Below are positions 18,322 to 60,737 of a stretch of 64,000 nt of DNA, piece by piece. Numbering within the stretch: position 1 is the stretch's first letter; every line of letters starts with the position of its first letter. The notes below the pieces were generated by a model. It ran no database searches, was not told where the DNA came from, and worked only from the letters and a program-made list of their open reading frames with translations. Position numbers and translations under genes: made by a program. The stretch comes from Blautia pseudococcoides (lineage in GTDB: Bacteria; Bacillota; Clostridia; Lachnospirales; Lachnospiraceae), in assembly GCF_001689125.2 (NCBI RefSeq), contig NZ_CP015405.2, positions 2,199,001 through 2,263,000 of the forward strand. Direction: 5' to 3'.

Positions 18322-19845
18322 CTAGATTTCCACCAAAACTCCACACTCCCTCACCACATCCAATATCTCCCCCTCCAAGATCAACCTCTTCACCTCTTCC
18401 ATATAAGGCTCCAACGCCTCATCCTCCTTCAAACAAGGCATAACCTCCCGAATCTTCCCATAAACCGCCTCAATAGCCGGCGAAGACTGTCCGGCAGGAT
18501 AAAACTCCTTCGCCTGCGCCGCGCAGATCAACTCGATCGCCAGCACATACCTGGCAGTCTCCACCGCGTCACATGCCTTCCTTGCCGCATTATACCCCAT
18601 ATTCACATAATCCTCCTGATTTGCACAAGTAGGCACATTATCCACCACCGCAGGATGAGCCAAAAGCCGCATCTCCCCCGAAAGCCCCGCTGCCGTATAC
18701 TGGATCATCATCAGCCCATCATTAAAATCCGCACTGGCATTCAAAAACGGCGGCAGTTCACTGAGATGCCTGTTCACCAGACGGTCCGTGCGGCGTTCCG
18801 CCATTTTCACCATATCCGCAAGCGCAATACAAAGAAAATCAGATGCCATTCCCAGATAGGTACCATCCGCATTACATCCCATAAGCGCCTCCGCCCCATT
18901 CTCCCCCTCAAAAATAAGGGGATTATCCACAGAAGAATTCAGCTCAATCTCAATGGATTCCAAACCATCCTTCAACACCTTTTTCACCGCGCCGTGGAGC
19001 TGAGGCATACACCGCAGGGACAAAGCATCCTGTACCCGGTAATCCCTGTACTTCTCCGCGATCTGACTGCCGTACAAAATATTTCTGATATTCTCAGCCG
19101 TCTGCATCTGTCCCGGATGGGGTCTGGCCTGCATAAGCCTTTCATCCATGGCTTTCAGCGTACCTTTCAGCATTTCCAGGGAAAATGCCCCTGCCACATC
19201 CGCTGTTTTCGCAAGGATGATACTATCAGAATAGGCCAGACAGGCCAGCGCTGTCACAGATGTGGTTCCCGATACAAGAGTCAGCCCCTCCTTTGAGCCA
19301 AGAACTGCCGGCTTTAACCCCGCACGCCTTAGTGCCTCCGCACCTGTCAGAAGATTTCCCTCATACCAGGCTTTTCCTTCCCCGATCAGCACCATTCCGA
19401 TATGGGCTTCCAAACCAATATAACCTACAGAGCCATGTTTCGGAACCCTGGGCGTGATGTTCCTGTTCAGCAGCTCTTTCAAAAGCTCCAGGGTTTCCAG
19501 GCGAAATCCGGTGTGCCCGCTTCCAAAATGCAGGAGCATGACAAATATCATGGCTCTGACCCCCTCCTCCGAGAGAGGTTCCCCTACAGAGACTGTGTGG
19601 GCCAGGATATGATTCCTCTGGATTTTAACCCGCTCCTCCTCAGGAATAAATTTTCGGCAGTTATCCCCCAGGCCTGTCGTAATGCCGTAAATAGCTTTTC
19701 CTTCACGGCTGAAACGCTCCACATGTTCCCTGCAGGCCTTCACTCTCTTTTTATATTCTTCTGAAAACTCCACTTTTGCGCCGTACCTGGCTACAGACAC
19801 TACCTGCTCCAGCGAATTTTCTCCTCCTAAAGTAACAAGATCCAT
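18322..19845 (-). CDS. HAL/PAL-family lyase homologue 1 lacking the MIO triplet
   Basis: The fold is that of aromatic amino-acid ammonia-lyases. I chose the ATG at 19845 (507 residues) because GGAGG precedes it at 5 bases; the ATG 12 bases earlier overlaps that site. YGITTGLGD near residue 53 and VQDALSLRCMPQLHGA and SSVDNP further on match histidine ammonia-lyase. At the place where HAL has GSVG-Ala-Ser-Gly-Asp, this protein has GSVG followed by Tyr-Ile-Gly (142-144) and LEAHIG. The MIO cofactor cannot form. It is therefore not a HutH. By analogy with ergothionase, a HAL relative that expels trimethylamine without MIO, it may act on a betaine. It is the last gene of the 13-gene operon. Confidence 0.85.
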   Translation of the reverse strand: MDLVTLGGENSLEQVVSVARYGAKVEFSEEYKKRVKACREHVERFSREGKAIYGITTGLGDNCRKFIPEEERVKIQRNHILAHTVSVGEPLSEEGVRAMIFVMLLHFGSGHTGFRLETLELLKELLNRNITPRVPKHGSVGYIGLEAHIGMVLIGEGKAWYEGNLLTGAEALRRAGLKPAVLGSKEGLTLVSGTTSVTALACLAYSDSIILAKTADVAGAFSLEMLKGTLKAMDERLMQARPHPGQMQTAENIRNILYGSQIAEKYRDYRVQDALSLRCMPQLHGAVKKVLKDGLESIEIELNSSVDNPLIFEGENGAEALMGCNADGTYLGMASDFLCIALADMVKMAERRTDRLVNRHLSELPPFLNASADFNDGLMMIQYTAAGLSGEMRLLAHPAVVDNVPTCANQEDYVNMGYNAARKACDAVETARYVLAIELICAAQAKEFYPAGQSSPAIEAVYGKIREVMPCLKEDEALEPYMEEVKRLILEGEILDVVRECGVLVEI

Positions 19846-19900
19846 AGATACCTCCATTTGCCAAGAGGCGCACGCAGGGCAAAACCACTGCGTGCGCTCC

Positions 19901-20929
19901 TCAGTTCAGCTTTTTATTGTTTTCATATCCCCCTTCCAGGGACACACTCATTATTTTCAGTCTCCGGTAAACATCTTCCTCCACCTCTGCCTCATGGGAC
20001 GGCATCTGGCTTACGGGTCTGCTTCCGAATATCTCACCGGGAACAAACACCTGGCCGCCGGGTTTCATAGGCGGACAATTCCGCACATCCCCTGCCAGGC
20101 CGTCCACTTCCTCCGTAAAAGCATCAAGAGTCGTAAACATCTCCGGCGAAAATGCCACAAACAGATATCCCAGGTCATATTCATCCCCGGCATGATACCC
20201 CATTTTTGCTCCCACAAAAGCACCTGTCATCACTTCCAGCGCATAACAGAGCGCATAACCCTTTGGTCCGCCAAAAGGCACTCCTGCTTCTGCTTTCTCC
20301 GGGTCTGTGGTAAAATTCCCCTCCCCGTCTATAAAACAGTTATCCGGAAGGGGCCGGTTCTCCACAATGGACTGCCGGACTTCGCCCCATACCTTCTGGG
20401 AAGTGGCAAAATCAAAAATATAAGGCTTTCCTCTTTTGCTGGGGAAGGAGAAACAAAGGGGATTGGTACCGAACATGGCCTTCGCCCCTCCGAAGGGAGC
20501 CACGCAGGCCGGACCTCCGTTGTTGGTGATCATACCCACAAGCCCCTCCTCAGAAATTTTTCTGGCATAGGGCGTGATCCTGGAATAGCGCCCCACATTT
20601 TTCAGGGCTGTGATCCCCACACCGTGTTCTTTTGCCGCAGCAATTGCCAGATTGGTGGAGTACAGGGCCGCAATATGCCCCAGTTCTCCGTTACCGTCCA
20701 CCTGGGCATAACAGCCTTTCTGCTTGATCAGCTTCATGTCTCCGCTTCTTCTGGAAAGACCTGCATCCACAGTCAGGAATTTTGACAGGCCATGGGTTCT
20801 GTGCCCCTCCAGTTCGGATTCCAGATAATCGGAGATCATAAATTCCGCATATTCCCCTGTAATGCCCCTTAGTGCCAAAGCTTTGTGCATCAGCTCTTTT
20901 ATTTCTTCTATTTTTACTGTAACACCCAT
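19901..20929 (-). CDS. Ldh2/MDH2-family NAD(P)-dependent dehydrogenase
   Basis: The 342-residue protein belongs to the malate/L-lactate/ureidoglycolate dehydrogenase family, which also includes delta-1-pyrroline-2-carboxylate reductases. ESELEGHRTHGL near residue 37 has the conserved His, and VGRYSRITPYARK and GPKGYALCYALEVMTGAF follow as in the family. Its place beside two aconitase-X enzymes is notable, because cis-3-hydroxyproline dehydratase (aconitase X) works with such a reductase. The substrate here is inferred, not shown. Confidence 0.85.
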   Translation of the reverse strand: MGVTVKIEEIKELMHKALALRGITGEYAEFMISDYLESELEGHRTHGLSKFLTVDAGLSRRSGDMKLIKQKGCYAQVDGNGELGHIAALYSTNLAIAAAKEHGVGITALKNVGRYSRITPYARKISEEGLVGMITNNGGPACVAPFGGAKAMFGTNPLCFSFPSKRGKPYIFDFATSQKVWGEVRQSIVENRPLPDNCFIDGEGNFTTDPEKAEAGVPFGGPKGYALCYALEVMTGAFVGAKMGYHAGDEYDLGYLFVAFSPEMFTTLDAFTEEVDGLAGDVRNCPPMKPGGQVFVPGEIFGSRPVSQMPSHEAEVEEDVYRRLKIMSVSLEGGYENNKKLN

Positions 20930-21042: not shown

Positions 21043-22428
21043 CTATAGTATTGCCAAAAGCTCATCCAGCATCTGGGTCTGCCGTTTATCATATACAGGC
21101 AGGCAGTACCCATCCAGGCGCTCTCTTACCAGTTCCTGGGCCTTTAAGATGACAGAGGGCATACCCAGCTGCTTCCAGTTATGGTATATCTCACTGTTGA
21201 ACAGCCTGGGATGAAATAATTCTTTTTGATACAGCTCCAGGGTCTCATCCTCCAGCATATAGGTCCCCCCTGGCCCTACCCTTCTGATCATGTCCATATG
21301 GATGGACTCCTCTGTTATATAATCACGGTTTTCCACTGAGAATCTGGCTTCCAGCATCTCTTCATCCAGCACATATTTTTCCAGGCTGAACACATTCAGA
21401 CAATCCATCTCCCCAAATGCATGGAAAATAAAATCCGTATCGCAGTCAAAGGTGGTCATCAGGGACACAGCCGTCTCGGCGCCGTCCTGCCAATCAAGCT
21501 GCTTTGCGCCTGAGAGGGAGCCGCCTACCCTGGAGGGAATGCCGTAAAAGTCAGCCATCGCCTTTGCATACTGCATGAAGACCGCAACCTCCGGCCCCCA
21601 GGAGATGGGAACTGCCTTTCTCATGTCTGCGCTGTAGGTCACATTGCCGTAGACCACCGGAACGCCGGGATTTACCACCTGAGTCATGAGAATGCCTGCC
21701 AGTACCTCCGCGTTGTTCTGCACCACAGTCCCGCCCACCGTGATGGGGCTGGTCATCCCCGGTGCGGAGCAGCAGGTGATCACAACCGGCTGGTTCCTTT
21801 TTACATAAGCCAGGGTAGCTGCCACGTCCTCCCTGCTGTACCTGAGGGGGGAACTTACATTTTCCACGCCTATCGTAAAATATTCCCCCATCTCTCCGTA
21901 AAAGTCCCTAATGAACTCAATGGATTCCGCTGCGCTCTTTCCTGTCTCACAGGATGCGATCAGCGGCTTTTTGGAATATTTCAGGCTCAGGACGGTCTTT
22001 AGCAGTTCCACCTTGCCATCCGGAAGCCCTGAGGCATAGATACCCGGCACGCAGCACAGATTCACCAGACGGCTTGTCTCGTCCATTTTCGTGGCATCAA
22101 TATAATCTTTTACCGTGGGGGTACATATCTCCCCGTCTCTCAATATGGTCATGGCACCTGAAGCGGTGGAAACAGCCTTGCCTCCATCCCCTATTTTCAG
22201 GCTGGCAAAGGGCGTCTCTATGGTAAAGCTGGGCTTCAGGCCTTTCAATATTTCCTCTGTGAAAGAGCGTTCAAAATAAACCCTCTGTCCCTCCACACGG
22301 ATTCCTCTCTTTTTGAATACCTCCAGAATTTCACGGTGTTCAAAATTCACGCCCACACTCTCCAGAATTTCCAGAGACTTCTCATGAATCATCTGCACTT
22401 CTGAATCTTTTATCTTCTTCACGAGCAT
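21043..22428 (-). CDS. MttB-superfamily methyltransferase homologue 1 (no pyrrolysine)
   Basis: The 461-residue protein is a COG5598/MttB-type TIM barrel. Characterised non-pyrrolysine members demethylate quaternary amines such as glycine betaine, proline betaine and carnitine, passing the methyl group to a corrinoid protein. IHEKSLEILESVGVNF at the start, CCSAPGMTSPITVGGTVVQN in the middle and VGPGGTYMLEDE near the end match. There is no in-frame amber codon. No corrinoid partner or activase gene is in the window. It shares strong similarity with the gene at 29890. Its substrate is unknown; a methylated amino acid is likely from context. Confidence 0.85.
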   Translation of the reverse strand: MLVKKIKDSEVQMIHEKSLEILESVGVNFEHREILEVFKKRGIRVEGQRVYFERSFTEEILKGLKPSFTIETPFASLKIGDGGKAVSTASGAMTILRDGEICTPTVKDYIDATKMDETSRLVNLCCVPGIYASGLPDGKVELLKTVLSLKYSKKPLIASCETGKSAAESIEFIRDFYGEMGEYFTIGVENVSSPLRYSREDVAATLAYVKRNQPVVITCCSAPGMTSPITVGGTVVQNNAEVLAGILMTQVVNPGVPVVYGNVTYSADMRKAVPISWGPEVAVFMQYAKAMADFYGIPSRVGGSLSGAKQLDWQDGAETAVSLMTTFDCDTDFIFHAFGEMDCLNVFSLEKYVLDEEMLEARFSVENRDYITEESIHMDMIRRVGPGGTYMLEDETLELYQKELFHPRLFNSEIYHNWKQLGMPSVILKAQELVRERLDGYCLPVYDKRQTQMLDELLAIL

Positions 22429-22497: not shown

Positions 22498-22926
22498 TTA
22501 CTGCAAAGATGCCTTCAGGATCTCCAGCGTACCTTTTGTTCCGTCAAGTCTTACAAAATCCCCGGTTTTCACCCGGACACACGGGTCATCCTCTTTTGAA
22601 AAATCCACCACTGTGGGAATCTGCATAACAGCGCTGGCAACCCCCGCACTGCTGTCTATTTTGGAAAATGCCCATCCCCTGGGCGCAGAGCCGGCGGCTC
22701 TTGCTGCCCCGAAATAGCAGGACCATCCGTTGGATCCCTTACTGCCCGGCATGATCAGAATGGTATCCTTTATACTTTTCCCTTTATTGATGTTCTCATA
22801 ATCCTTTATCACACCTGTTTCCGGGTCGATGCCGCCCCATCCTGTGATACTGTCCGCGCACACCAATGCTTTGCCTTCCACAATGCCCGGTATCACACCT
22901 CTGCCCTGCAGCACTATTTTTTCCAC
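22498..22926 (-). CDS. Aconitase-X small (swivel) subunit 1
   Basis: This 142-residue protein is the swivel domain (DUF126) of a two-subunit aconitase X. The start is GTG at 22926, after AGGAGG; it overlaps the large-subunit gene by 13 bases. The loop PGSKGSNGWSCY (near residue 68) holds the conserved glycine/serine cluster that faces the active site. It pairs with the adjacent large subunit. Confidence 0.85.
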   Translation of the reverse strand: MEKIVLQGRGVIPGIVEGKALVCADSITGWGGIDPETGVIKDYENINKGKSIKDTILIMPGSKGSNGWSCYFGAARAAGSAPRGWAFSKIDSSAGVASAVMQIPTVVDFSKEDDPCVRVKTGDFVRLDGTKGTLEILKASLQ

Positions 22927-24215
22927 CGGTATTCCTCCTTCCAAACGCCGGATACTGCTGCGTCTATGCAGCGGTATTTATCCGTATAATAGACACGTTC
23001 GGCGCAGCCCTCTGAGCGCACGCTTCCGGACTGTTTCAGACTGTCATAGACCTGCCCTTTGTAGCGCTTTAAGAAACAGTCTCCTATGGTGACCGGACAG
23101 GTACTTGTCTGTATGGTTCCTCCTGCATCTTCGATCATCTTCGTATATCCGTTTAAATCCGCCATGGCCTTGATGGGATATACGGTCCATATCATAAATC
23201 TTACACCATCGTGTATCTTTTTGCCACAAATATAATCCGCTGCCTCTTTAATCTGATGGATATCATAATGAGGGCAGCCCAGGCTGACCAGATCCACAGA
23301 GCCTCCTTCTGTCTCACACAGAGGCTCATAAGCGGAACAGATATCCTGCTGCGTCAGCGTAAATTCCTCCTGCACCTCGTGTCCCATAAAAGCCTCCTCA
23401 AGGGTATTGGCTTCCGGGGTGATCCCCACAATATGGCACATCCTGCAGTTGGTGGTAATGGCAAGGGCAGTAAAAAAACTTTTCAGCTTTACAAAATCCA
23501 CACCCTCAAAATTGCCGGTAAGGACCGGTGTGCAGCCGGTCAGCGGCAGCCGTTTTCCCATGGCTTTTCCCAGCAACTCCCATTCAACAGGGGAGTCAAG
23601 GTCCGCCTCCACATGGATCAAATGGGTTCCATAACGGTTTTCCTTCACATGGTATCCCCAGTAAGGTGTCCTGCCGCAGATGGCTGACCAGAAAGCCGCT
23701 TCGATCCCATCTGCATTGCAGCACGCTCCCCATATGGAATTGCCCATGATGGTAACCCCTGACTCTGTGGTCACAAAATGCTCCCCGCGCACAGGCAGCC
23801 ACCCCATCAGATAAGGGGAACAGGAACCGGCTATGGTAACACCTGCTTTTCTGGACTCCTCCAGATAGTAATTGTTCTTATCAAAATCCTCTTTGGGCTG
23901 GTTGAAGATCTCATGATCAAACTGGTCGCTGGCAGCCACGCAGGACTGCACATAGCAGTCCTTGTCCACACGGTCAAAGACGATCCGCTCATCACGGGCC
24001 AGGTTCATCCTGGAAAATACCTCATGGAAATCTTTACTTTTACAGACGCCAAGATAGGTATGGCTCCCGCAGAACACAGTGGCCTTTGTCACTTTACAGA
24101 GTTTTTCCGCCCCCAGGACCCGGGCATACTGCACGATATTTTCCAGAGCAGTCTGGCGAAGCTTTCCCTGTTTTCCGTCCAGGATCTCCTGCTCTTCTTC
24201 TGTCAAATGAATCAC
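22914..24215 (-). CDS. Aconitase-X large subunit 1, divergent
   Basis: The 433-residue protein is the catalytic (DUF521) subunit of aconitase X, an Fe-S hydro-lyase family that includes cis-3-hydroxyproline dehydratase. Likely cluster cysteines are kept: GSCSPYL (Cys132), SLGCPHYDI and TSTCPVT. The stretch after the first cysteine differs from usual members: TESGVTIMGN-SIWGACCNADG (150-170) stands where the second copy has SESSATPY and GARTNREG. Loss of those Ser and Arg residues suggests a different substrate. It overlaps the swivel 2 gene by four bases. Confidence 0.82.
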   Translation of the reverse strand: MIHLTEEEQEILDGKQGKLRQTALENIVQYARVLGAEKLCKVTKATVFCGSHTYLGVCKSKDFHEVFSRMNLARDERIVFDRVDKDCYVQSCVAASDQFDHEIFNQPKEDFDKNNYYLEESRKAGVTIAGSCSPYLMGWLPVRGEHFVTTESGVTIMGNSIWGACCNADGIEAAFWSAICGRTPYWGYHVKENRYGTHLIHVEADLDSPVEWELLGKAMGKRLPLTGCTPVLTGNFEGVDFVKLKSFFTALAITTNCRMCHIVGITPEANTLEEAFMGHEVQEEFTLTQQDICSAYEPLCETEGGSVDLVSLGCPHYDIHQIKEAADYICGKKIHDGVRFMIWTVYPIKAMADLNGYTKMIEDAGGTIQTSTCPVTIGDCFLKRYKGQVYDSLKQSGSVRSEGCAERVYYTDKYRCIDAAVSGVWKEEYRWKK

Positions 24216-24637
24216 TTGCTGTCCTCCGTTTCCTCCAGGATCTCAATGATCCCCTGGTCTGCATCCACTACGATCCGGTCCCCGTCCTTCACGGTCTCAT
24301 AAAATGCAGGGTCCACTCTGTCCACCATAGGCACCTCCATAATGATGGCACTGGACACCAGCACCGTTTCCGGATGCTCAATGATCATGGCTGCCGGTGA
24401 ATTTTCCCTCTGGTTTAACTGATAGAGGCCATCTGCCTGCACCACGGAGCTGCCCTTTCCGCCAGGAAAAATCAGTGCCTTATGAGCAATGGATCTTCCC
24501 TCCAGATCATGGGCCTTCTCTATGACAGTGCCTGTGGCAGGGTCTATCAGATAGAACATGATATGGTCCTTTGATACAATGGCCTGCGCCTCCGCCCGGC
24601 CCTCAGAAATTTTATGGCATGTAAATCTTTTTCCCAT
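24212..24637 (-). CDS. Aconitase-X small (swivel) subunit 2
   Basis: The 141-residue DUF126 swivel protein has FPGGKGSSVVQADGLYQL near residue 58 in place of the GSKGS loop of copy 1, and a late VPMVDRVDP segment. It is two bases from the second large subunit and overlaps the first large subunit by four, so all four aconitase-X genes form one coupled block. Confidence 0.85.
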   Translation of the reverse strand: MGKRFTCHKISEGRAEAQAIVSKDHIMFYLIDPATGTVIEKAHDLEGRSIAHKALIFPGGKGSSVVQADGLYQLNQRENSPAAMIIEHPETVLVSSAIIMEVPMVDRVDPAFYETVKDGDRIVVDADQGIIEILEETEDSK

Positions 24638-24638
24638 A

Positions 24639-25847
24639 TTATTTTACCTCCCCGGTGAGTGCTGCTTCGATACATGTGTCAAGGTCCCGGATAACAAAAT
24701 GAATGCCTCTCCTCTGGGGATAGTAAGCACATTTCGGTGACTCCGTGATTCCGACTTTGCCTGTCAAATGCCTCCAGCAGGGCTGGTCCGGGCAGCTGTC
24801 AGGCACGATAAAACCGCCTGCATCTGTGATGATCCGGTCAAATCCCATGCGTACTGCCATCTCTTTTACGTGGCTGGATGTGAGGATCCACATCTCTTTT
24901 TTAAGCTTCTTTCCTTCCAGTTTTTCCGCTATGTATTTTACTTCCTCCAGTGTAAAATGAGGGCATCCAAACATGGCAAAATCAATTGTCCTGCTGCCTT
25001 CCAGAGAGATTTCTTTTAAAATTGCTTCTTTATCCTCATTGGTGATCACCACCGTTCTCTTTGGCGCCTTACCTCCAAGAGCGGTCCCCAGGTCAGGGGC
25101 TTCCGGGGTAACTCCCACAATATGGTACATGCCGTAAGCGCCTGATGTATTAAGCTGGGCACCCAGATTTCTCAGCGCCTCCTTCGTGATGGTTTCCTTC
25201 GGAAAGCCGGTAAATACAGGAATGCCCTCCCCGATCTTCTTACCCAGCATACCGATGATATGGTAGTCAAAATCATTCTTCACATCTGCCTGTATCTCCA
25301 CCAGGATATCACCTTTTCTGTTCTCGTCCAGCAAAAGCCCGTACTCCGGCACACAGCCTGTGATGGCTGCACAGAGGGCACTGTTAGCCCCCTCCCGGTT
25401 GGTCCTGGCTCCCCACACCGCGTTGGCATAAGGTGTGGCGCTGGATTCCGAGAAGGCGATCACCTCCCGGTAATTCGGTACATTTGTGTCAATATAGGGG
25501 GTACAGTTATAGGAAAGCTGTGCTCCCAGTGCTTTGTAGGCATTGTGTGTTCTCTGCATCAGATCCGCATATTCCGGTGCCACCATGTCCCTGTTTTTGA
25601 AAAATTCCAGGCAGAAGCCAGGATTAACTGTGGGGATTACCCTGCATTTCGCGCCGCCTGCAAGCATCTTCTCTGCAAACCACAGGTCTGCCTCCTGATT
25701 TGACAGGGCAACATGTGCCCTGGTGATGGGAACCATCCTTTCAGCGCCGAAAGACTCGCCGATCGCCGCCTGTATTTTCATGGCATAGGCTGCTCCCTTT
25801 CCATATTTTCCATCCAGCATGTCCTGCTGGTGCTGTGTCAACTGCAT
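24639..25847 (-). CDS. Aconitase-X large subunit 2, canonical
   Basis: The 402-residue protein keeps the full aconitase-X signature: NCTPYI (Cys115), FSESSATPYANAVWGARTN (132-150) with the Ser and Arg residues of the substrate pocket, FGCPHFTLEEV and DSCPDQPCW. Characterised bacterial enzymes of this type dehydrate cis-3-hydroxy-L-proline. With the Ldh2-type gene downstream that reaction is a reasonable guess, but the HAL and MttB neighbours point to a wider pathway. Confidence 0.87.
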   Translation of the reverse strand: MQLTQHQQDMLDGKYGKGAAYAMKIQAAIGESFGAERMVPITRAHVALSNQEADLWFAEKMLAGGAKCRVIPTVNPGFCLEFFKNRDMVAPEYADLMQRTHNAYKALGAQLSYNCTPYIDTNVPNYREVIAFSESSATPYANAVWGARTNREGANSALCAAITGCVPEYGLLLDENRKGDILVEIQADVKNDFDYHIIGMLGKKIGEGIPVFTGFPKETITKEALRNLGAQLNTSGAYGMYHIVGVTPEAPDLGTALGGKAPKRTVVITNEDKEAILKEISLEGSRTIDFAMFGCPHFTLEEVKYIAEKLEGKKLKKEMWILTSSHVKEMAVRMGFDRIITDAGGFIVPDSCPDQPCWRHLTGKVGITESPKCAYYPQRRGIHFVIRDLDTCIEAALTGEVK

Positions 25848-25868: not shown

Positions 25869-27401
25869 TTATTTATCCAGTACTGTCCGGGCACTTTTTA
25901 AAAGCCCGCCGTCATGGATCCAGTCTTTGAGTTTCTCCAGGCAGGGGTATATATAAATATCCTCCTCCATGACAGGGACCAGGTCTTTCATTGCCTCCAG
26001 TACAGCCCCGGTTCCCTCTCCCCTTGCCAGGGATGCGTCCACAAACTGCTGTGCCTGGTAAGCGGAGAGCAGTTCGATCGCCAGGACATACTCGAATTTT
26101 TCTGCTACACTAAGCGCTTTTTTACAGGCATTGTATCCCATGGATACATAGTCTTCCTGATTGGCACTTGTGGTCACACTGTCCACGGAAGCCGGAGTGG
26201 ACAGGATCTTCATATCATTCAGAAGCCCTGCCTGTGTATACTGGGGTATCATAAGGCCGGAATTCAGGCCAGGTTTTTTGATCAGGAAGTAAGGATGTTC
26301 CGACAGTTTTTCATCCAGGAAGCGCACATTTCTGCGCTCCGACATTTTCGCCGCCGCTGTGGCTGCAATACAGGCGGAATCCATCTCGATCCCCACATAG
26401 GAGGCATCCGGATTTCCGTTGGAAAACACCTGCGGGTCATCAGGCTCCCCACATACTATGGGATTATCCGCACATCCGTTGATCTCCACCTCAATTGCCG
26501 CCCAGGCATCCCGCAGGGTCTTCTTCACCGCGCCGTGAAGCTGCGGGATACACCGCAGTGACAAGGGATCCTGCACATGGGTACCCTCTGCCTTCTTTAT
26601 CACCTGGGAACCACGGAGCATCTGCTTGATAAGGGCAGCCGTCTCCAAAAGTTCTTTCTGGGGGCGGCAGTTGAGCACTCTGTCATCGTAGGCCCGCAGT
26701 AGCCCGTTCAGCATCTCAAAAGACATGGCTGCCACCACGTCAGCAGATTCCACTGCTTTCAGCAGATCGTAAATACCCATAGCTGCCAGGGCCGTAGGGG
26801 AGGAAGTCCCGTTCAGAAGCGCAAGCCCTTCCTTGTAGCTGGGTGCCAACGGCTCCATGCCGGCCTTCCTAAGTGCGGTCCTGCTGTCAGACAGCTCCCC
26901 CCGGTAATACATCCTTCCCTCTCCGATCAAAGCTGCCGCAATATGTCCCTCCGCGCACAGATATCCCACCGAACCTTCCCGTGGCGTGCAGGGTATGAGA
27001 TTCTTATTCAAAAAGTCCCGGTAATGCTCCAAAAGCTCCATCCGCACACCGCTCATACCCATGCCAAGGCTCTGTAAAACCATCAGGATAATGGCCCTTA
27101 CCTCTTCCTCTTTGAAAGGCTCCCCCACACTGGTGGAATGGGTCAGGATAATATTACGCTGTAATTTTTCCGCGTCCTCTTTTCCTATGGTCTTTGTGAC
27201 CAAGGCTCCAAAACCTGTGGTTGTGCCATAGACTACCCGCTCCTCCTCCACGCATGTCTCCACAATTTTTCTGGATCTCTCTACCCGCTGCCTGTATTCC
27301 GGGGAAAAATCCACCTCCGCATGAAAACGCACCACTGCCATAAATTCCTCTATGGTCAGTTTCCTGCCTAAAACTACTTTTGTCATTTTTTCTTCCTTCA
27401 T
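25869..27401 (-). CDS. HAL/PAL-family lyase homologue 2 lacking the MIO triplet
   Basis: This 510-residue protein is closest in the window to homologue 1. AAAGGGGG precedes the ATG at 27401. YGTTTGFG (58-65), VQDPLSLRCIPQLHGA and GCADNP are typical of the family. At the MIO site it reads GSVG then Tyr-Leu-Cys (147-149) and AEGHIA, so no Ala-Ser-Gly. The Tyr and the ExH pattern (Glu151, His153) are shared with homologue 1 but not homologue 3, which suggests a common and separate chemistry. It follows the aconitase-X block within the same operon. Substrate unknown; an amino-acid betaine is inferred. Confidence 0.85.
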   Translation of the reverse strand: MKEEKMTKVVLGRKLTIEEFMAVVRFHAEVDFSPEYRQRVERSRKIVETCVEEERVVYGTTTGFGALVTKTIGKEDAEKLQRNIILTHSTSVGEPFKEEEVRAIILMVLQSLGMGMSGVRMELLEHYRDFLNKNLIPCTPREGSVGYLCAEGHIAAALIGEGRMYYRGELSDSRTALRKAGMEPLAPSYKEGLALLNGTSSPTALAAMGIYDLLKAVESADVVAAMSFEMLNGLLRAYDDRVLNCRPQKELLETAALIKQMLRGSQVIKKAEGTHVQDPLSLRCIPQLHGAVKKTLRDAWAAIEVEINGCADNPIVCGEPDDPQVFSNGNPDASYVGIEMDSACIAATAAAKMSERRNVRFLDEKLSEHPYFLIKKPGLNSGLMIPQYTQAGLLNDMKILSTPASVDSVTTSANQEDYVSMGYNACKKALSVAEKFEYVLAIELLSAYQAQQFVDASLARGEGTGAVLEAMKDLVPVMEEDIYIYPCLEKLKDWIHDGGLLKSARTVLDK

Positions 27402-27414: not shown

Positions 27415-27951
27415 TTAAAAGTTTCTGCACACTACATTTCCGTCTGCCGCTATAGGCATGTATCTGGCTTTTGTCCCCTCCACCATGTCCCCATAGATGG
27501 CAATGTAAAACGGACGGTAAACCTTGCGCTCCTCAACCGGCTTTATGGCTAAATTCCTGCCCACATGGCGTCTCACCATCCGGCCTGCCATAATGGCGCC
27601 GCAGTCCGTGAGCCTCTTATCTTCATAATATGTGGGCTGGATATCATTTTCTTCCACATCCTTTACTTCTGTTGCTATATCGTCCTCCACATAGGAGGCA
27701 CTGCAGGTGGTGGCTTCCACCATCACACGGATTTTTTGTCTGTCCTCGTCATTTTTCTTCTTGATGGTCTTGACAATAATGTTGTCTTTGTACGTCATTT
27801 CATATGTAATATAACGGCTTTCCAGATACATAATACGGAGGTTGATTTTCTTACTTCCAAACAGGGCGCGCACGATGGGATTTTTCCCACCTTTTGCAAT
27901 TCTGAGAGCTTCCTCCTCTTTCATCTTTACAGGAAAACATTCTATTTTCAT
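27415..27951 (-). CDS. Unknown protein in the HAL/aconitase-X/MttB operon
   Basis: I do not recognise this 178-residue protein. It is soluble by composition, with a basic N-terminal half (IAKGGKNPIVRALFGSKK), a segment VMVEATTCSASYVEDD in the centre, and a C-terminal half rich in Tyr and Arg. There is a single prominent Cys at the centre, one in LTDCGAIM and one near the C-terminus. It is 13 bases upstream of HAL homologue 2, so it likely works in the same pathway. Confidence 0.6.
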   Translation of the reverse strand: MKIECFPVKMKEEEALRIAKGGKNPIVRALFGSKKINLRIMYLESRYITYEMTYKDNIIVKTIKKKNDEDRQKIRVMVEATTCSASYVEDDIATEVKDVEENDIQPTYYEDKRLTDCGAIMAGRMVRRHVGRNLAIKPVEERKVYRPFYIAIYGDMVEGTKARYMPIAADGNVVCRNF

Positions 27952-28105: not shown

Positions 28106-28384
28106 TTATTTTTTCTTTTTCTTGTCACTGCCTTTTTTGCCGGTGGCAAATGAAACAACTTCTGTACAATATTTCAGGAAAACGCCCACGGTTATAAGAA
28201 TGGCGATTCCCGGAGCCATGATACCGATAATAAAATCCACACTGTTCAGCATTCCATATCCATAAATACATGCCAGCACAATATAGAGGAGCACCAAAGC
28301 GCCGTCCACGCCCAGCCATTCCACTTTCAGCTCTGATTTTTCCTGTTCTGTCAGTTCACTTGTCTTTTCTTTGGGATCTTTCAT
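28106..28384 (-). CDS. Small two-helix membrane protein beside symporter
   Basis: The 92-residue protein has a charged N-terminus, two hydrophobic helices (about residues 29-46 and 50-72) and a Lys-rich tail. It lies 13 bases after the sodium:solute symporter gene. Small membrane partners are known for some SSS transporters, so an accessory role is inferred. It is followed by a 154-base gap before the next gene. Confidence 0.65.
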   Translation of the reverse strand: MKDPKEKTSELTEQEKSELKVEWLGVDGALVLLYIVLACIYGYGMLNSVDFIIGIMAPGIAILITVGVFLKYCTEVVSFATGKKGSDKKKKK

Positions 28385-50862: not shown

Positions 50863-52905
<2,043 letters not shown>

Positions 52906-53106: not shown

Positions 53107-56091
53107 TTAAATATCCTCCAGCCACTCTATTTCATATGCCCCGGGTATTTCCTTCAGGCAGCGCTTCGCCATGTCTTTATACACATCCACCGGTTCTGTG
53201 AGTATCTCCCGAAACTCTTCCGGAAAGCGCACCAGCAGCTCCGCCTCTGTCAATGCCAGAAGTCCTATGGCATAGGGGGATGCAAACTGCCGTGCACTTT
53301 TCCGGGCATCCTCCAGATACCTTACAGCTCCCTCTTTATTTCCCTTTTCCGCCTCCAAAACTGCCAGATATCCCTTGGTTATGGAACGGCCGATCAGCGT
53401 AAAGGACTCCTCATACACACGGTCTGCCCGGTAAAGTGCCTCCGTACTCTGCCTTGTCTTCCCCATGGCCAGGTAAGAACGCGCAATATTGGAATAAAAC
53501 GTGGCATTACAGGGACAGTGATTGCTGTCACAGGTAGCCACTGCCTCTTTGTAATACGCATTGGCCTCCAGAAAATGCTTCTGCTTTCGCAGGATCTCTC
53601 CCATGTAATTATAACACGCGGCAATATTCAGGGCATAAATCCTGGATTTCAGCGGTGCATTCATGAAAAATCCCAAAGACTTTTTCAGAAACTCCATGCT
53701 CTCCCAAAATCTGCCCTTCATGGACAGGTACAGCCCATAGAGCCGGCAGGTTATGGCATAATCCTCCTGCAATCCGTTTTTCTCCGCCAGGATCAGACTT
53801 TCCTTCAGATACTCCTCTGTGGGCTCCATATCCCACAGATTGATCTGCTGGTATATGAGAAAACGCAGGCATCTGATTTTCTCTCTGGGGTCATCTCCTG
53901 CAAGAACATTGGTCTTCAATGCCTTTTCAATACATTCAGCCCCTTCCCTGTAATATCCCTGGGGGATACAATACTGGGCTGTGGCCTGCATAAGACTTAC
54001 ATGCAGTTTCAGATAGGACTCTTTCTCCGGGTTTCTCCGGCACAGCTCCAAAAGCTCTTCCTCCAGCTGTCTGCAGTAATCTAATACGGAATCCATCTGC
54101 ATTTCCTTTTTCCCGGAAACGGGAAAGAGCGGGTAAAGCTCATAGTACCTGTAAGAGTATTCCGTCAGCGCCCGAATCCTGTACACCAACGCTTTCTCTC
54201 TGTCGCCACAGAGGTTATAGTGAAAAATCAGCCTCTCATATCTGTTTGCCTCATAAAGCGGCAGTCCCTCAATATATTCCGCCAGTTTTCTGTGAAATAC
54301 CCGGCGTTTTGAGGGGGACATTTTGGTATGTATAAATTTCTGTATACTGTCATGGCAGAAAAAGAAACGCACCGTCTCCCCCTCCTGCTGCTCCCTGATA
54401 AATCCCTGCTCCTTCAGTTCCTCCACAGCATCCAGAATCCCCATCTCGTCGCATTTTAGGATCTGCATACAGGCATCCATATCCGCCCATGCCTGGCAGG
54501 AGGATATAAGCTCCAGCACTTGCTTTGTCTTTTTGGGCAGTGCGGCCATTTTCTGCTCCCAAACCTGATTCAGGGGAGTAATATCTCCGGCCTCCAGCCT
54601 TCCATCTCCGCAGCAGTCCAGCAGTGTCCTCAGATAAAGGGCATTTCCCGATGTCTCACCGTAAACCGTGTCCAAAAGTTCTTCGCTGACCCGCTCCTCC
54701 CCCAGTCTTTCCGCCAGAATCTTTCTTACCGCTTCTCTGGTGAAGGGAAACAGAGTGATCTCCTGCAGACAGCTCTCTTTCAGAAGCGGTTTGAGGGCTG
54801 TCCTTAAAGTCTGCGTGAAAATACAGGGACTGGTGGCAAGCACCATAATGTTAGGGTTCTTTGCCCGAATTAACAGAGAGAAAAATTCCAGGCTTGTCTC
54901 ATCCATATACTGGATGTTGTCAAAAAACAGTACCACCAGCGCCTGCTCCCCGATCTCTTCAAAAAGCTTTAAGAGCAGGTTTCTGGTGGCCCGGTAACTG
55001 TAGGATATGGTGGTATCCCCCATGACCGGCTCCTTCATTTGTTTGGTATTAAAAAGTGGAAACAGGTGCTCTGCCGCCTGCAGGTATTTATGATCCAGGG
55101 CAAAATCATGCTTTTTCAGAAGAGAATTCACCTGCATCATTATGGTATTCCAGGGCTGCAGTACAATATTCTGTTCGTTTTCCAGACAGGCAGCCCTTAA
55201 GACAATTGTATTTTCCCCTGTGATCTCTTCCAGGAAACGTTCCGCCAGATAGGTTTTGCCCACACCGCTTTTGCCTGAAAGGAGCACGGATGTAGGGACA
55301 CCGGACAAGAACTGCCGGTAAGAAGCCTGGAGAAGCTGCAGTTCCCGCTCCCTTCCCGTACAGACTTCCCCTGATTGTTCCACCTCCTTCTCCCCCTCCT
55401 CAGACCAGACATGGAGAAGATTGCGGTAAAGCTCCCGTATTTCCCTGCGGGGTGCTACCCGAAGCTCTGTATTCAGCAAATTCACAAGCTGCTGGTACAG
55501 ACGGATCCCTTTATAGTAAAGATGCGCACTTTCATAGATCTCCATCATGCGCAGATACACCCGCTCATCTAAAGGGTCCTCCTGTACATAACGCTCAAAC
55601 AACGTCTCCCCCTCAGCCACGGACAGACCGGCTGCGCTCTGCATTTTGTCATAAATAGCACGCAAAAATGCTTCTTTTGCCAGTCCCCTCTTCATGGTCA
55701 GCCACTCTTCATAAGGGTAAGCGTTTTTTATATAAAATCCTCCCAGAAGCTCCACCTGATAGAGTTTTGGTTCTCTCTCTTCCATAAATGCATCATAATC
55801 CACAAGAAAAGTAAGCTCCGGATTCAGCTCCAATGTCTGTCTTGTGGGTGAAGATACAAGATCTGTATGAAATATTTTGCGGATGGTGTACAGGGCATGG
55901 CGCAGATTCTTCTTAGCAGTTGCCTCATCGCAGGAATCCCACAAAAGCGCTGCGATCTGATCCCTTGTGGCTTTTTTCTCGATGGCCATATAGTACAGAA
56001 GTGCTTCTGCCTTCTTATAAGGCAGGATGATCTGTTCCTCATCCAGCAAAATCTGCGGTGTCTGTAACACATATATCTGAACTGTTGACAC
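53107..56091 (-). CDS. Large BTAD/AAA-ATPase regulator 2
   Basis: I chose the GTG at 56091 (994 residues) because AAAGGAGA lies just upstream; the frame is open for 33 more codons without family-like sequence. Residues 1-90 form a winged helix (ATRDQIAALLWDSCDEATAK), followed by a BTAD region to about 250, an NTPase with Walker A SGKSGVGKTYLAE and Walker B ALVVLFFDNIQYMD, and C-terminal TPR-like repeats. It is similar in design to regulator 1 at 31839. It lies between the HAL 3 cluster and hutU copy 2 and probably activates both. The 260-base gap upstream (56092-56352) holds a GTTACTGT/ACAGTAAC inverted repeat and no gene. Confidence 0.87.
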   Translation of the reverse strand: MSTVQIYVLQTPQILLDEEQIILPYKKAEALLYYMAIEKKATRDQIAALLWDSCDEATAKKNLRHALYTIRKIFHTDLVSSPTRQTLELNPELTFLVDYDAFMEEREPKLYQVELLGGFYIKNAYPYEEWLTMKRGLAKEAFLRAIYDKMQSAAGLSVAEGETLFERYVQEDPLDERVYLRMMEIYESAHLYYKGIRLYQQLVNLLNTELRVAPRREIRELYRNLLHVWSEEGEKEVEQSGEVCTGRERELQLLQASYRQFLSGVPTSVLLSGKSGVGKTYLAERFLEEITGENTIVLRAACLENEQNIVLQPWNTIMMQVNSLLKKHDFALDHKYLQAAEHLFPLFNTKQMKEPVMGDTTISYSYRATRNLLLKLFEEIGEQALVVLFFDNIQYMDETSLEFFSLLIRAKNPNIMVLATSPCIFTQTLRTALKPLLKESCLQEITLFPFTREAVRKILAERLGEERVSEELLDTVYGETSGNALYLRTLLDCCGDGRLEAGDITPLNQVWEQKMAALPKKTKQVLELISSCQAWADMDACMQILKCDEMGILDAVEELKEQGFIREQQEGETVRFFFCHDSIQKFIHTKMSPSKRRVFHRKLAEYIEGLPLYEANRYERLIFHYNLCGDREKALVYRIRALTEYSYRYYELYPLFPVSGKKEMQMDSVLDYCRQLEEELLELCRRNPEKESYLKLHVSLMQATAQYCIPQGYYREGAECIEKALKTNVLAGDDPREKIRCLRFLIYQQINLWDMEPTEEYLKESLILAEKNGLQEDYAITCRLYGLYLSMKGRFWESMEFLKKSLGFFMNAPLKSRIYALNIAACYNYMGEILRKQKHFLEANAYYKEAVATCDSNHCPCNATFYSNIARSYLAMGKTRQSTEALYRADRVYEESFTLIGRSITKGYLAVLEAEKGNKEGAVRYLEDARKSARQFASPYAIGLLALTEAELLVRFPEEFREILTEPVDVYKDMAKRCLKEIPGAYEIEWLEDI

Positions 56092-56352
56092 AATTTTTCT
56101 CCTTTCCGAAAAAGCGGTTACTGTCCACAGCCCTGCAAAACACAGTTCTGTAAACAGTAACACGCTTCGCGATACACAGATACGGAGCATTCTGCTCCAT
56201 ATCGCGCTGGCTGCCTCGGTATAATGGCCCTAAATCGTAACAAAAAACGGCCTTCTCTGCACTCCATTCTATACAAAATCCCACATAAAGTAAAGAAAAA
56301 AGGCTGCTGCTTTGGAAATTTACCAAAGCGGCGGCCTTGCTGCCAGAAAATT

Positions 56353-57467: not shown

Positions 57468-57497
57468 TGTAACAGTTCAGCGGTCTGAACTGTTACA
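57468..57497. repeat. Perfect hairpin at end of BCCT gene
   Basis: TGTAACAGTTCAG (57468-57480) and its exact complement (57485-57497) close a four-base loop. The right arm includes the BCCT stop codon. No U-run follows, so it is probably an RNA 3'-end stabiliser and not a simple terminator. Confidence 0.7.
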
Positions 57498-59091
57498 GTT
57501 CCGCAATCACCTTAGGCTCCACATCTACCACATCATCCACATCCTCAATGATCTTATCAATGAAGAAGACTTTAAAGGTAGCTGCAAGCTGCAGCAGGAA
57601 TATGGGCAGTACGCAGAATCCGCCCACACCGGACAAGTATTTCACACCTTCCACGCCCTGCTGTCCGCCGCCGAAGATTACCATAATGACGGAAATAATA
57701 CCAATGGAAACGCCCCACACGATTTTCTGCCAGTTTGCAGGTTCCTCATCGTAGCTGGAACCCTCCGTACAAATCTGGGAGATGGTGGTGGACATGGTAT
57801 CCGCCGTAGTTGAGAATGCCGCGATCATGGTGATCATAATAAGAGGAATGAGGATAAAGCTGATGGGCATCTTTTTCAGCAGCTCCCACAGACCGGACAC
57901 CGCAATGCCGTTCTGTATGGCCCCGATCAAATCCGCCTTTCCGATATCCTGCCAGTTAAGTGCTGTTCCGCTCCATACAGAGAACCAGATCAGACCAAAG
58001 GTAGACGGCATGATCCAGTTTACGATCATAAACTGGCGGATGGTCCTTCCGTAAGAAATCATGGCAAAGAAGATAGCCATAAGCGGTGCATATGCGATCC
58101 AGCACGCCCAGTCAAACATGGTCCACCAGGTAACAAGTGCCTCACCGCCCACAATACCGGGGTCAAGTCCCCAGGAAAGGAAGTGGTCGCCCCAATATCC
58201 GATACCTGTATTCATCATATTCAGTATGTACACCGTCGGTCCTGCAATGAGCAGAAATGCAAGCAGCACATAGAAAATCTTGGAGGTTCCGTTTGCCAGC
58301 CACTTAATACCTTTATCAAGACCTGCCACAGACGCAATGGTAAAGGTAGCTGTTATAATGACAAACAGGGTAAACCACACAACAGGTCCCTGTTTGATGC
58401 CATAAGCCGCCTCAAGACCTGAACCGATCAGTGCAAGTCCCATACCCAGGTTACTGGAAAGTCCCAGGGCCAGAGCCACAATAGAAACCACGTCTATGAC
58501 ACTTCTTATCACACCGTATTTGACTCTCTGTCCAAACAGAGGAGTCAGGGAAGCTGCCACGGACAGTTCTTCCTTCTTGTTGAAATAAATGTAAGCCATT
58601 GCACATCCAACGATGGAGTACATTGCATAAGGGATAAAGGTCCAGTTATAGAACACACGTCCCATACCAAACATGGCAGCCTCCTGGGTCAGCGGCTCTA
58701 TGCCGTAGCCTCCCAGTTCCCCGTAAATACTGCCGTAATAAATCATAACCTCATTGGCACCGTACACGATACATCCTGTAGCGATACCGCCTGTCAGCGT
58801 CATGGCGAACCATGAACCAAAGGAGTGCTTCGCTTTCGCATTTCGCCCTCCGAATCTGACCTTGCCCAGTTTGGAAAATGTAAGGATCATAACCACAACC
58901 AGACAGAAAATAGCTACCAACTGATACAGCCATCCAAAACTTTTCAGGGACCATCCAAAAATAGCCGAGCAGACCTTGGTCAGCCAGTCATTTTTCAGGA
59001 TTCCCAGAAGTGCGCCGCCGCCGATGATGGCGAATGCCGGTATAAATACACTCCACCGGACAGCTTTTTGTTGCTTCTTTTCTCCACTCAT
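57493..59091 (-). CDS. BCCT-family betaine/carnitine/choline-type transporter
   Basis: The 532-residue membrane protein has 12 helices. The BCCT signature region is present: WWTMFDWACWIAYAPLMAIF (near residue 320), and GMGRVFYNWTFIPYAMYSIV earlier. BCCT carriers import or exchange quaternary ammonium compounds. Beside a HAL homologue and HutD, the likely cargo is a histidine betaine such as hercynine or ergothioneine. The 158-base gap to HAL 3 has a GCCCTGT/ACAGGGC hairpin (59128-59146). Confidence 0.92.
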   Translation of the reverse strand: MSGEKKQQKAVRWSVFIPAFAIIGGGALLGILKNDWLTKVCSAIFGWSLKSFGWLYQLVAIFCLVVVMILTFSKLGKVRFGGRNAKAKHSFGSWFAMTLTGGIATGCIVYGANEVMIYYGSIYGELGGYGIEPLTQEAAMFGMGRVFYNWTFIPYAMYSIVGCAMAYIYFNKKEELSVAASLTPLFGQRVKYGVIRSVIDVVSIVALALGLSSNLGMGLALIGSGLEAAYGIKQGPVVWFTLFVIITATFTIASVAGLDKGIKWLANGTSKIFYVLLAFLLIAGPTVYILNMMNTGIGYWGDHFLSWGLDPGIVGGEALVTWWTMFDWACWIAYAPLMAIFFAMISYGRTIRQFMIVNWIMPSTFGLIWFSVWSGTALNWQDIGKADLIGAIQNGIAVSGLWELLKKMPISFILIPLIMITMIAAFSTTADTMSTTISQICTEGSSYDEEPANWQKIVWGVSIGIISVIMVIFGGGQQGVEGVKYLSGVGGFCVLPIFLLQLAATFKVFFIDKIIEDVDDVVDVEPKVIAEL

Positions 59092-59249
59092 AGAATACCT
59101 CCTGGTAATATAATTTTTCCCGCAGCCGCCCTGTATCGAACAGGGCAGCCGCCTATGTAATGCGGACGGTTTCCCGCCGCTTTACTGCACTTTACACAAA
59201 TCTACCATTCTGCAGCGTTCCGGCCTCCATAGCCGCTTTTTTCCGTACG

Positions 59250-60737
59250 TTACAGACTCTTCAGGAAGTCGTACGTCTTCTGGATATCCACTGACATGTT
59301 CCTGTCATTGTCCAGATACGGAACCTCTTTACGGTATGATTCAAACAGAGGCCTTGTCCCCTCTCCAAGCTGTGGTATTTCTCTTAAATCCACGGCCTGT
59401 GCTGCATGCATCAGCTCAATGGCAGCCATATAATACAGGTTATCTATGATTTTCCGCATATTTGCTGCAGCCATGGTTGCATTGCTGGCTGTATCCTCAA
59501 TATGGCCTGCCATACTAAGGAAGTCAAGGGAACACGGATTTGCATACATACGGTTCTCTGTATCCAGATATGACACCGTCTTCTGTATGGTTCCGTATGC
59601 TATGACAGCCCCCTCAGCAGGTGTCAGGAAACGGTTCAGCTTTGTAAATCCCGGGTCGCCGATCCTGAGGATCTGCTGGGATATCATTTTTGACATATGA
59701 GCCAGTCCCGTGCTTGCCATCTCCACTGCCAGAACCCAGGTCAGCGGCTCAAAATTAGGGCTTCCGCACATCCTGTCCTCCTCCGGAAGCAGACAGGGAT
59801 TGTCATCCGTGGCATTTAACTCCACTTTAAGCTGCTGCTTCAGATAGGCCAGGGCATCCATCACAGAACCCGTTATGGCGCTCTGACACCGGAAACTCAG
59901 CGGATCCTGAAGGGCTCTTCCCTCCCAGGGTTTCTCAAGATAGCTGCCTTTTAAAAGCTCTCTGCACTTTCTGGCTGACTCCATCTGGCCCTGATAACCG
60001 CGTTCCCGGTTTACACTTTCGTCCATAGGGTCAAGCACGCCGTTCAGCCCTTCAAGCGCCAGGCAGAATACCTTTCTGTAACGCTCAATGAACTGTTCCG
60101 CCTCAATGACTCCCATGGCTGCGAAAGCGGCTCCCTGGGCATTGGAGGAGACAATGCCCAAGCCGTCCTTTGGTCCCAGCTTCAGAGGTTTCAGGCCCGA
60201 AAGTTCCAGCGCTTTTGCACTTTCCATACGCTGACTTTGATAATAGGCCTCGCCTTCCCCGATAGCGGTGAGGCCAATGGCCGGGAGGGTTGCTATATCC
60301 GCTTCCCCCACGCTACCCCGGCTCTTTATGACCGGATGCACACCCCTGTTTAAAAATTCAACATAATACTCCACTATCTCAGGAGCCACCCCTGTATGTC
60401 CGCAGAGAAACCCATTTAACCGCACAGCCATAATGGTTCTGGTCTCCGGGATACTGCACTCCGGCCCCACACCGATCATGTGGCTTCTCAGCAGATTTTT
60501 ATTGTACGCGTCATACCGGTCAGCATACACCACTTTATCTTTGTTCCAGCCCACGCCTGTGTTCAGACCATAGACTGCAATACCGCGTCTGTCCAGCTCA
60601 AAAATCAGCTCTCTGGCTTTCTGCACTTTTGCCATAGCCTCAGCATCCACTTCCACTTTTGCATTTTCAAACGCGATTTCTTTTATCTGGGAAATCGTCA
60701 GCTCACTTCCCGTCAGCCGAATTACCTTCTCCTGCAT
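59250..60737 (-). CDS. HAL/PAL-family lyase homologue 3 lacking the MIO triplet
   Basis: The 495-residue protein keeps family landmarks YGLNTGVGWN (56-65), ALQDPLSFRCQ and LNATDDNPCL. At the MIO site it reads GSVG then Glu-Ala-Asp (145-147) and IATLPAIGL; Ala-Ser-Gly is absent. AAGGAGG precedes the ATG. Ergothionase, a HAL relative, expels trimethylamine from ergothioneine without needing an MIO. The adjacent BCCT carrier, HutD and second HutU make hercynine or ergothioneine the best substrate guess, giving urocanate or thiourocanate plus trimethylamine. It lies one base after the molybdenum hydroxylase gene, in one operon. Confidence 0.87.
   Translation of the reverse strand: MQEKVIRLTGSELTISQIKEIAFENAKVEVDAEAMAKVQKARELIFELDRRGIAVYGLNTGVGWNKDKVVYADRYDAYNKNLLRSHMIGVGPECSIPETRTIMAVRLNGFLCGHTGVAPEIVEYYVEFLNRGVHPVIKSRGSVGEADIATLPAIGLTAIGEGEAYYQSQRMESAKALELSGLKPLKLGPKDGLGIVSSNAQGAAFAAMGVIEAEQFIERYRKVFCLALEGLNGVLDPMDESVNRERGYQGQMESARKCRELLKGSYLEKPWEGRALQDPLSFRCQSAITGSVMDALAYLKQQLKVELNATDDNPCLLPEEDRMCGSPNFEPLTWVLAVEMASTGLAHMSKMISQQILRIGDPGFTKLNRFLTPAEGAVIAYGTIQKTVSYLDTENRMYANPCSLDFLSMAGHIEDTASNATMAAANMRKIIDNLYYMAAIELMHAAQAVDLREIPQLGEGTRPLFESYRKEVPYLDNDRNMSVDIQKTYDFLKSL

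Follow-up and report, generated by a model that had tools for sequence, protein, structure and literature searches.

Candidate trimethylamine lyases lacking the MIO triplet among histidine ammonia-lyase homologues of Blautia pseudococcoides

We identified three homologues of histidine ammonia-lyase (HAL) in a 64-kb stretch of DNA (the window), which covers positions 2,199,001-2,263,000 of the 5.13-Mb single-contig genome of Blautia pseudococcoides (G000; G001-G019 denote genomes of the same genus). These are HAL-A (18322..19857 (-), 511 aa), HAL-B (25869..27401 (-), 510 aa) and HAL-E (59250..60737 (-), 495 aa), hereafter A, B and E. All three are without the Ala-Ser-Gly triplet that forms the 4-methylideneimidazole-5-one (MIO) electrophile of HutH, and they are probably trimethylamine lyases of histidine-derived betaines that belong to two lineages. 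E is very probably an ergothionase by sequence, and A and B, members of a separate group that we call the Tyr-loop family (A, B and relatives with a GSVGY loop), are most likely imidazole-betaine trimethylamine lyases. The sequences, the loop, the active-site residues, the phylogeny and the gene order were observed directly; substrates, products and mechanism are what we infer from them, with gene order as the main functional evidence. Residues are numbered as in Pseudomonas putida HutH.

The open reading frames of A, B and E are complete, and each matches the Pfam family PF00221 over nearly the whole profile (435-534 bits). A and B are 44% identical to each other, and E is 30% identical to A and 28% to B. 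Identity to P. putida HutH is 36% for A, 37% for B and 28% for E, and identity to the Treponema denticola ergothionase (PDB 6s7j) is 48% for E, 29% for A and 26% for B. A first-pass annotation, made from the letters of the window, had described three HAL homologues in which the Ala-Ser-Gly after GSVG is replaced by another triplet. The letters it gave (YIG in A, YLC in B and EAD in E) are correct, and alignment with HutH and ergothionase recovered Ala-Ser-Gly in none of the three, but the change is not a plain swap. In the alignment the loops of A (GSVGY-IGLEAH) and B (GSVGY-LCAEGH) are a net three residues shorter than ASGDLAPLAH of HutH, reading Y---IGLEAH and Y---LCAEGH, and the loop of E is one residue shorter (GSVG-E-ADIATL, compared with SSIG-E-GDITTL in 6s7j). 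The loops are deletions with a new residue in the place of the MIO alanine. A and B share Tyr and ExH at the site and E differs from both, as had been noticed at first pass.

The signature of A and B is GSVGY(L/I/V)xxE(A/G/S)H. The pattern GSVGY(L/I/V)xxE(A/G/S)(H/Y) is found in 114 of the best 120 A relatives listed, many of them near copies, and because so many relatives share the Tyr loop, the missing Ala-Ser-Gly in A is not a sequencing error. Five of the other six matched the pattern with different letters, perhaps elsewhere in the protein, and one was unmatched. Named Blautia relatives of A are 88-89% identical to it, and one further relative reaches 96%. Exceptions in the loop are few in the wider family, for example Gln replacing the loop His in locus L081 and GSVAY in L059.

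The case for E as an ergothionase is the more direct one. E matches 6s7j with 512 bits over residues 6-494, and other solved chains reach at most 251 bits. It has the acidic E-x-D loop without the MIO triplet (GSVGE-ADI against SSIGE-GDI in 6s7j) and the IQK lysine (GTIQKTV against GTIQKTF), which we take to play a part in catalysis by the T. denticola enzyme. The same lysine is present in E2, a second ergothionase-like protein of the genome at 1713059. Next to E lies a gene for a betaine/carnitine/choline transporter (BCCT; 57493..59091 (-)), which matches PF02028 with 374 bits and NF047988 with 312 bits, below the cut-off of 650. Ergothioneine imported by this carrier would be the substrate of E, which would eliminate trimethylamine to give thiourocanate. 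A and B were also considered as ergothionases and rejected: they have GSVGY---(I/L)xxExH instead of the E-x-D loop, and QYT at the position of the IQK lysine.

The two lineages were also recovered in phylogenetic trees. A quick tree of 60 rows, 35 of them from the Tyr-loop family and 12 from the ergothionase group, was built after removal of the loop and five active-site columns. In this tree the Tyr-loop family, with A and B, and the ergothionase group, in which E stands with the T. denticola enzyme, are each monophyletic, both with a Shimodaira-Hasegawa-like approximate likelihood-ratio (SH-aLRT) value of 100. A single clade of Tyr-loop proteins and ergothionases was not rejected by the approximately unbiased test (p-AU 0.555), and the tree cannot tell one loss of MIO from two. 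A larger quick tree (127 rows, 64 of them Tyr-loop) resolved A-type, B-type and C/S-type together with smaller subclades, with members from several phyla. The separate placement of E and of A and B, with their different loops, supports the earlier proposal that at least two chemistries are present.

The active-site positions outside the loop are largely those of HutH. Tyr53, His83, Gln277, Arg283 and Glu414 are retained in A, B and E in the alignment. We presume the roles assigned in HutH work, namely Tyr53 as the base, Arg283 for the carboxylate and Glu414/His83 for the imidazole. Leu replaces Tyr280 in A, B, E and 6s7j. At position 195, Ser is found in A, E, 6s7j and those Acinetobacter and Indiicoccus members of the family that adjoin hut genes; B retains the Asn of HutH, as do the members next to hut genes in L081 and L083, except that one of the three L083 members has Thr. 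Position 329 carries Ala in A, Pro in B and the original Phe in E and 6s7j. Acinetobacter also has homologues that keep Ala-Ser-Gly and carry Gln at 414, and these are presumably PAL/TAL-like. Because A and B keep Glu414, whereas the PAL/TAL-like homologues have Gln414, the site points to an imidazole substrate for A and B. Since B keeps Asn195, A and B may differ in substrate, and B may take one that is less methylated or otherwise different.

These residues suggest how such enzymes could work without the electrophile. A quaternary ammonium group would depart as a neutral amine, so that no electrophile would be required. The loss of the MIO group and of the Tyr280 phenol, and in A of Asn195 as well, would free room for the N-methyl groups, and the residues kept in A and B would handle the rest of the substrate, Tyr53 as base, Arg283 at the carboxylate and Glu414/His83 at the imidazole. 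It could also be supposed that A and B are inactive or have been recruited for some other role, since their cofactor loop is lost. We find this hardly plausible: in 19 aligned A-type sequences the non-loop catalytic positions Y57, H87, Q276, R282 and E415 are invariant, and the pairing of carrier and HAL genes described below recurs in several phyla.

Gene neighbourhoods tie the family to betaine-type carriers. Carriers were recognised by similarity to the carriers of the window, either BCCT or a sodium/solute symporter (SSS) with its 178-aa partner protein (U178), and were counted within three same-strand genes. With one row per 90%-identity group, the Tyr-loop family had a carrier at 42 of 59 loci and the ergothionase group at 9 of 12, whereas the HutH group, which here includes one PAL/TAL-like and one Ala-Cys-Gly protein, had one at none of its 17 loci. 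A larger set with an 85% redundancy limit gave 46/61, 9/12 and 0/15, respectively (Fisher p 5e-8, only a guide because the rows are related). Redundancy filtering reduced the number of the 20 control regions.

In two genera the family sits among hut genes together with a betaine-type carrier. Indiicoccus explosivorum (L088) has a BCCT, a Tyr-loop HAL divided between two frames, HutU, HutI and HutG in one place and an ordinary HutH-HutG-HutI-HutU operon in another. Its HutU is a urocanate hydratase by model (988 bits, cut-off 375) and scores below the cut-offs of both thiourocanate models, and its HutG reaches 184 bits, below the model cut-off of 229. Among the eight Acinetobacter genomes that hold the family, five have the Tyr-loop member among hut genes, mostly beside a BCCT. 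L213 consists of hutC, hutD, hutU, hutI, hutG, glutamate dehydrogenase, the Tyr-loop HAL and a BCCT; L125 and L215 have hutU, hutI, hutG, a gene for a 423-aa protein, the HAL and a BCCT; L123 matches these two in its hut genes and HAL, but no BCCT lies within five genes. In L216 (genome G806) the order is BCCT, a 405-aa protein, HAL, HutU, HutI, N-formylglutamate deformylase, formimidoylglutamate deiminase (HutF, on the other strand) and HutC. The five Acinetobacter HutUs that adjoin Tyr-loop members score 1009-1022 bits to the urocanate hydratase model, to which this comparison was confined. B-type members occur beside HutU in L081, near it in L083 and, in L077, on one stretch with HutU-HutI.

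For comparison, the HutH of L150 is followed by an amino-acid permease. Because a betaine carrier replaces the amino-acid permease at the hut-operon members and HutU is next in line, these members most likely convert hercynine (histidine betaine) to urocanate, for HutU, and trimethylamine. A has the same Ser195/Leu280/small-329 pattern as the Acinetobacter and Indiicoccus members, although it belongs to a different subclade, and would act likewise on hercynine or a close imidazole betaine. Hercynine is the best single guess for the substrate of A, and the choice for B is wider.

Several observations weigh against this assignment. A and B themselves do not adjoin hut genes, and the Acinetobacter and Indiicoccus proteins are distant relatives of theirs from other subclades, not orthologues. 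A hutU, hutI or hutG gene occurs within five genes of only 10 of the 61 family members. Three further loci of Acinetobacter (L211, L212 and L214) have a BCCT while hut genes are missing from their surroundings, as they are around the second copies of L076 and L079. Some members that do adjoin hut genes keep Asn195 (L081 and L083). A carrier is missing within three same-strand genes at 17 of the 59 Tyr-loop loci, where some stretches are cut short, and the same-strand rule leaves uncounted a BCCT-like gene (31%) that lies on the opposite strand, two genes from the HutH of L142. The family is also not uniform: in subclade Y3 (for example L130:9075-10706 and L082:2398-3960) the Tyr loop is combined with Asn195, Tyr280 and Phe329 as in HutH in four of the six members shown, and the chemistry of Y3 may differ again. 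Lastly, the AcnX, Ldh_2, RidA and MttB genes that surround A and B are not needed for the cleavage of hercynine.

Some of these points would fit A and B being lyases or mutases for a betaine without an imidazole, such as tryptophan, tyrosine or hydroxyproline betaine, the hut link then concerning other subclades only. After the Tyr53 loop the A-type has GDN, and the proteins of L088, L123 and L125 have GAL, GSL and GVL. HutU lies within three same-strand genes at 0 of 14 A-type and only 2 of 12 B/B2 loci, and the AcnX and Ldh_2 genes recall hydroxyproline or hydroxyacid pathways. However, all A and B rows listed retain Glu414, the position at which the PAL/TAL-like proteins have Gln, and the B-type does occur with HutU at L081, L083 and L077. 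We consider a non-imidazole substrate unlikely and retain imidazole betaines as the preferred substrates.

The first-pass annotation had also remarked that the window has no true HutH although the rest of the hut pathway is present. This holds for the window, which contains hutU, hutI, ftcD and an fchA-like gene and no HutH, but not for the genome, where two true HutHs with Ala-Ser-Gly lie at G000:C1:412031 and 5075417. An organism without HutH was ruled out by these two genes. Altogether the genome has six full-length PF00221 proteins and one fragment. Urocanate hydratase is encoded twice in the window, first in a hut operon without HutH (8481..10523 (-), TIGR01228) and again on the side of E (50863..52905 (-), TIGR01228 434.5 bits against a cut-off of 375, with the thiourocanate hydratase models below theirs). 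The two genes are 42 kb apart and differ at 4 of 2043 bases, and their flanking bases are unmatched; the near-identical copies are consistent with a recent duplication or gene conversion.

Could the family simply replace HutH, with A and B as histidine ammonia-lyases that work without MIO? A and B reach 494 and 488 bits to the NCBIfam hutH model (E 353 bits), and Tyr53, His83, Arg283 and Glu414, the imidazole-binding residues among them, are kept in all three. In Acinetobacter G806 the Tyr-loop protein, which sits among hut genes, is the only PF00221 protein found, although this assembly may be incomplete. No HutH was found in Acinetobacter G732, G776 or G806 despite their hut genes (L213, L215 and L216), in assemblies that are maybe incomplete, and the second PF00221 protein of G732 and G776 is PAL/TAL-like, with MIO and Gln414. 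Nevertheless, A and B score below the hutH cut-off (539.15), A, B and E lack the MIO-forming Ala-Ser-Gly, and Tyr280 is lost as in ergothionases, in A together with Asn195. Betaine-type carriers lie beside the family and beside none of the 17 HutH-group loci under the same-strand rule, and true HutHs coexist with the family in Blautia, Indiicoccus and several Acinetobacter genomes. We therefore give a cofactor-free HutH little credence, and the earlier suggestion that the three proteins are betaine lyases gains support from the ergothionase sequence of E, from the carrier counts and from the hut-gene placement in Acinetobacter and Indiicoccus, the substrates of A and B being a matter of inference.

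The cluster around A and B includes putative transport genes. An SSS-type symporter (28398..29819 (-), PF00474), which is likely the betaine carrier of the cluster and whose counterparts in other genera stand next to A-type HALs, is accompanied by a 92-aa probable small membrane partner (28106..28384 (-)) that has no Pfam match and recurs with SSS genes. U178 (27415..27951 (-)) has no Pfam or NCBIfam match, and in several genera it is found again between the genes for the SSS symporter and the HAL. Because the same three genes also adjoin an ergothionase homologue in C. ljungdahlii (L127), the SSS, 92-aa and 178-aa proteins are suggested to carry histidine-type betaines too. The cluster further contains a 331-aa protein with a C-terminal 4Fe-4S ferredoxin domain (34705..35700 (-)), which recurs with SSS-HAL operons, and a RidA-family protein (31296..31676 (-), PF01042).

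Since divergent paralogues often lie close together, with a second family member within three same-strand genes at 21 of 59 loci, A and B might also assemble into one hetero-oligomer whose active sites are composite. This is very improbable in our judgement, given that loci with a single member occur in several genera (for example in C. ljungdahlii, Sporosarcina, Anaerovirgula and Acinetobacter) and that Blautia G011 has A and B on different contigs with different partners.

Two MttB-superfamily methyltransferase genes are found in the same cluster. One encodes a corrinoid methyltransferase of the non-pyrrolysine kind, with no in-frame stop (21043..22428 (-); PF06253 282 bits, TIGR02369 208 bits), and the other is likewise non-pyrrolysine (29890..31281 (-); TIGR02369 218 bits); both are below the TIGR02369 cut-off of 525. 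MttB genes occur within five genes of 5 of 21 Asn195 members and 2 of 39 Ser195 members (p 0.045, a post hoc comparison of rows that are not independent); one further family member carries Thr at this position. A division of labour can be imagined in which hercynine loses trimethylamine through the Ser195 members (A and the Acinetobacter and Indiicoccus enzymes of hut operons), whereas the Asn195 members (B) act once a corrinoid MttB protein has passed a methyl group to the acetogenic pathway and then release dimethyl- or methylamine, making the A/B/MttB cluster a combined demethylation and elimination route for histidine betaine. We regard this elaboration as rather improbable.

The remaining enzymes of the cluster comprise two AcnX pairs and a dehydrogenase. 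AcnX large subunit 2 (24639..25847 (-); PF04412 426 bits, 224 bits to 7cnr) and swivel (small) subunit 2 (24212..24637 (-), PF01989) are followed by large subunit 1 (22914..24215 (-), PF04412 305 bits) and swivel (small) subunit 1 (22498..22944 (-), PF01989). The Ldh_2-family 2-hydroxy/imino-acid dehydrogenase lies at 19901..20929 (-) (PF02615 259 bits). Four other Blautia loci hold relatives of AcnX2 (77-90%) in the vicinity of a ~415-aa protein and genes of a tripartite ATP-independent periplasmic (TRAP) type transporter, with no HAL in the stretch. At one of these loci (L193) a lactate racemase N-terminal domain, DctP and DctM were assigned. Both AcnX enzymes of the cluster are heterodimeric, and the lactate-racemase-like protein and TRAP transporter around the AcnX2 relatives suggest a hydroxy-acid (de)hydratase, whose place in the pathway is perhaps on its acrylate side. 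More speculatively, AcnX might hydrate the acrylate product to a lactate analogue and Ldh_2 might oxidise this to a pyruvate analogue.

Beside E, on the side away from the BCCT gene, lie a molybdenum hydroxylase large subunit of the xanthine dehydrogenase type (60739..63009 (-), Pfam and NCBIfam matches) and its probable FAD subunit (63006..63866 (-)), named from its place and letters and recurring with the large subunit. Xdh-type genes are found at most three genes from 7 of the 12 ergothionase-group loci. The hydroxylase (60739-63866), which thus recurs with ergothionases, may act on thiourocanate. A Maledivibacter HAL homologue (L137:9717-11333) with Ala-Cys-Gly at the MIO site also has molybdenum hydroxylase genes nearby and joins the ergothionase branch in the tree. 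Between hutU and the BCCT gene is a BTAD/AAA/TPR regulator (53107..56190 (-), domain matches), and the region 38813-45181 holds an ABC-F protein followed by an ABC transporter of the lantibiotic-immunity type and a two-component system.

The Tyr-loop family is thinly spread over several phyla. In a set of 61 genomes, proteins at least 44% identical to A were present in 15 of 20 Blautia genomes and in none of 41 other relatives, in which the four near full-length matches are HutH-like. The family was found in 4 of 391 genomes drawn from the class (G000 and three others) and in 8 of 149 Acinetobacter genomes, and of 200 genomes from the family to which Indiicoccus belongs two have a match at E 1e-130 or better. 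In their source records such proteins go under names such as HAL/PAL/TAL family ammonia-lyase, aromatic amino acid ammonia-lyase and histidine ammonia-lyase. Among the open-licence papers listed we found no recognisable description of a hercynine lyase of the HAL fold; subscription journals were mostly outside this scope, so this is no proof of absence. E is of a known kind, and the Tyr-loop family, little noticed and probably misnamed, seems not to have been named as a betaine lyase.

If the assignment is right, proteins named histidine ammonia-lyase or HAL/PAL/TAL family ammonia-lyase free trimethylamine from histidine betaines and not ammonia from histidine, and calls of histidine degradation would be corrected in genomes whose hut operon is without HutH. 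Hercynine, which PMC7653990, a paper that also describes ergothionase, names as the main ergothioneine metabolite in a human study, would gain a dedicated breakdown route. The gut would have an added source of trimethylamine beyond choline, carnitine and ergothioneine; PMC13405746 states that ergothionase is not widely distributed among gut microbes, divergent homologues being uncounted there. Given its thin spread, the activity would be a specialised rather than a common trait, and the family would show an ammonia-lyase losing its built-in cofactor once the leaving group is already good.

Among known systems, HutH (P. putida, PDB 1b8f family) is one with which A and B share the fold, Tyr53, His83, Gln277, Arg283 and Glu414 at 36% and 37% identity. 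They differ from it in lacking Ala-Ser-Gly, in a loop three residues shorter, in Leu for Tyr280, in Ser for Asn195 (A), in the loss of Phe329 and in betaine-type carriers where the HutH of L150 has an amino-acid permease. Ergothionase (T. denticola, PDB 6s7j/6s7q) resembles E in its 48% identity, E-x-D loop, IQK lysine, Ser195 and Leu280. It shares Ser195 with A and Leu280 with both A and B, and they depart from it in their identity (29% and 26%), in a Tyr-x-x-x-Glu-x-His loop that is two residues shorter still, in having no IQK lysine and in Ala or Pro at Phe329. PAL/TAL-like MIO enzymes have the PF00221 fold in common with A and B, and those seen here keep Ala-Ser-Gly and carry Gln at 414. 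The MttB-superfamily quaternary-amine demethylases, dealt with in PMC8604678 and PMC12155760, are neighbours of A and B by gene order and likely act on the same substrate class, but they are not lyases and remove one methyl group by corrinoid chemistry.

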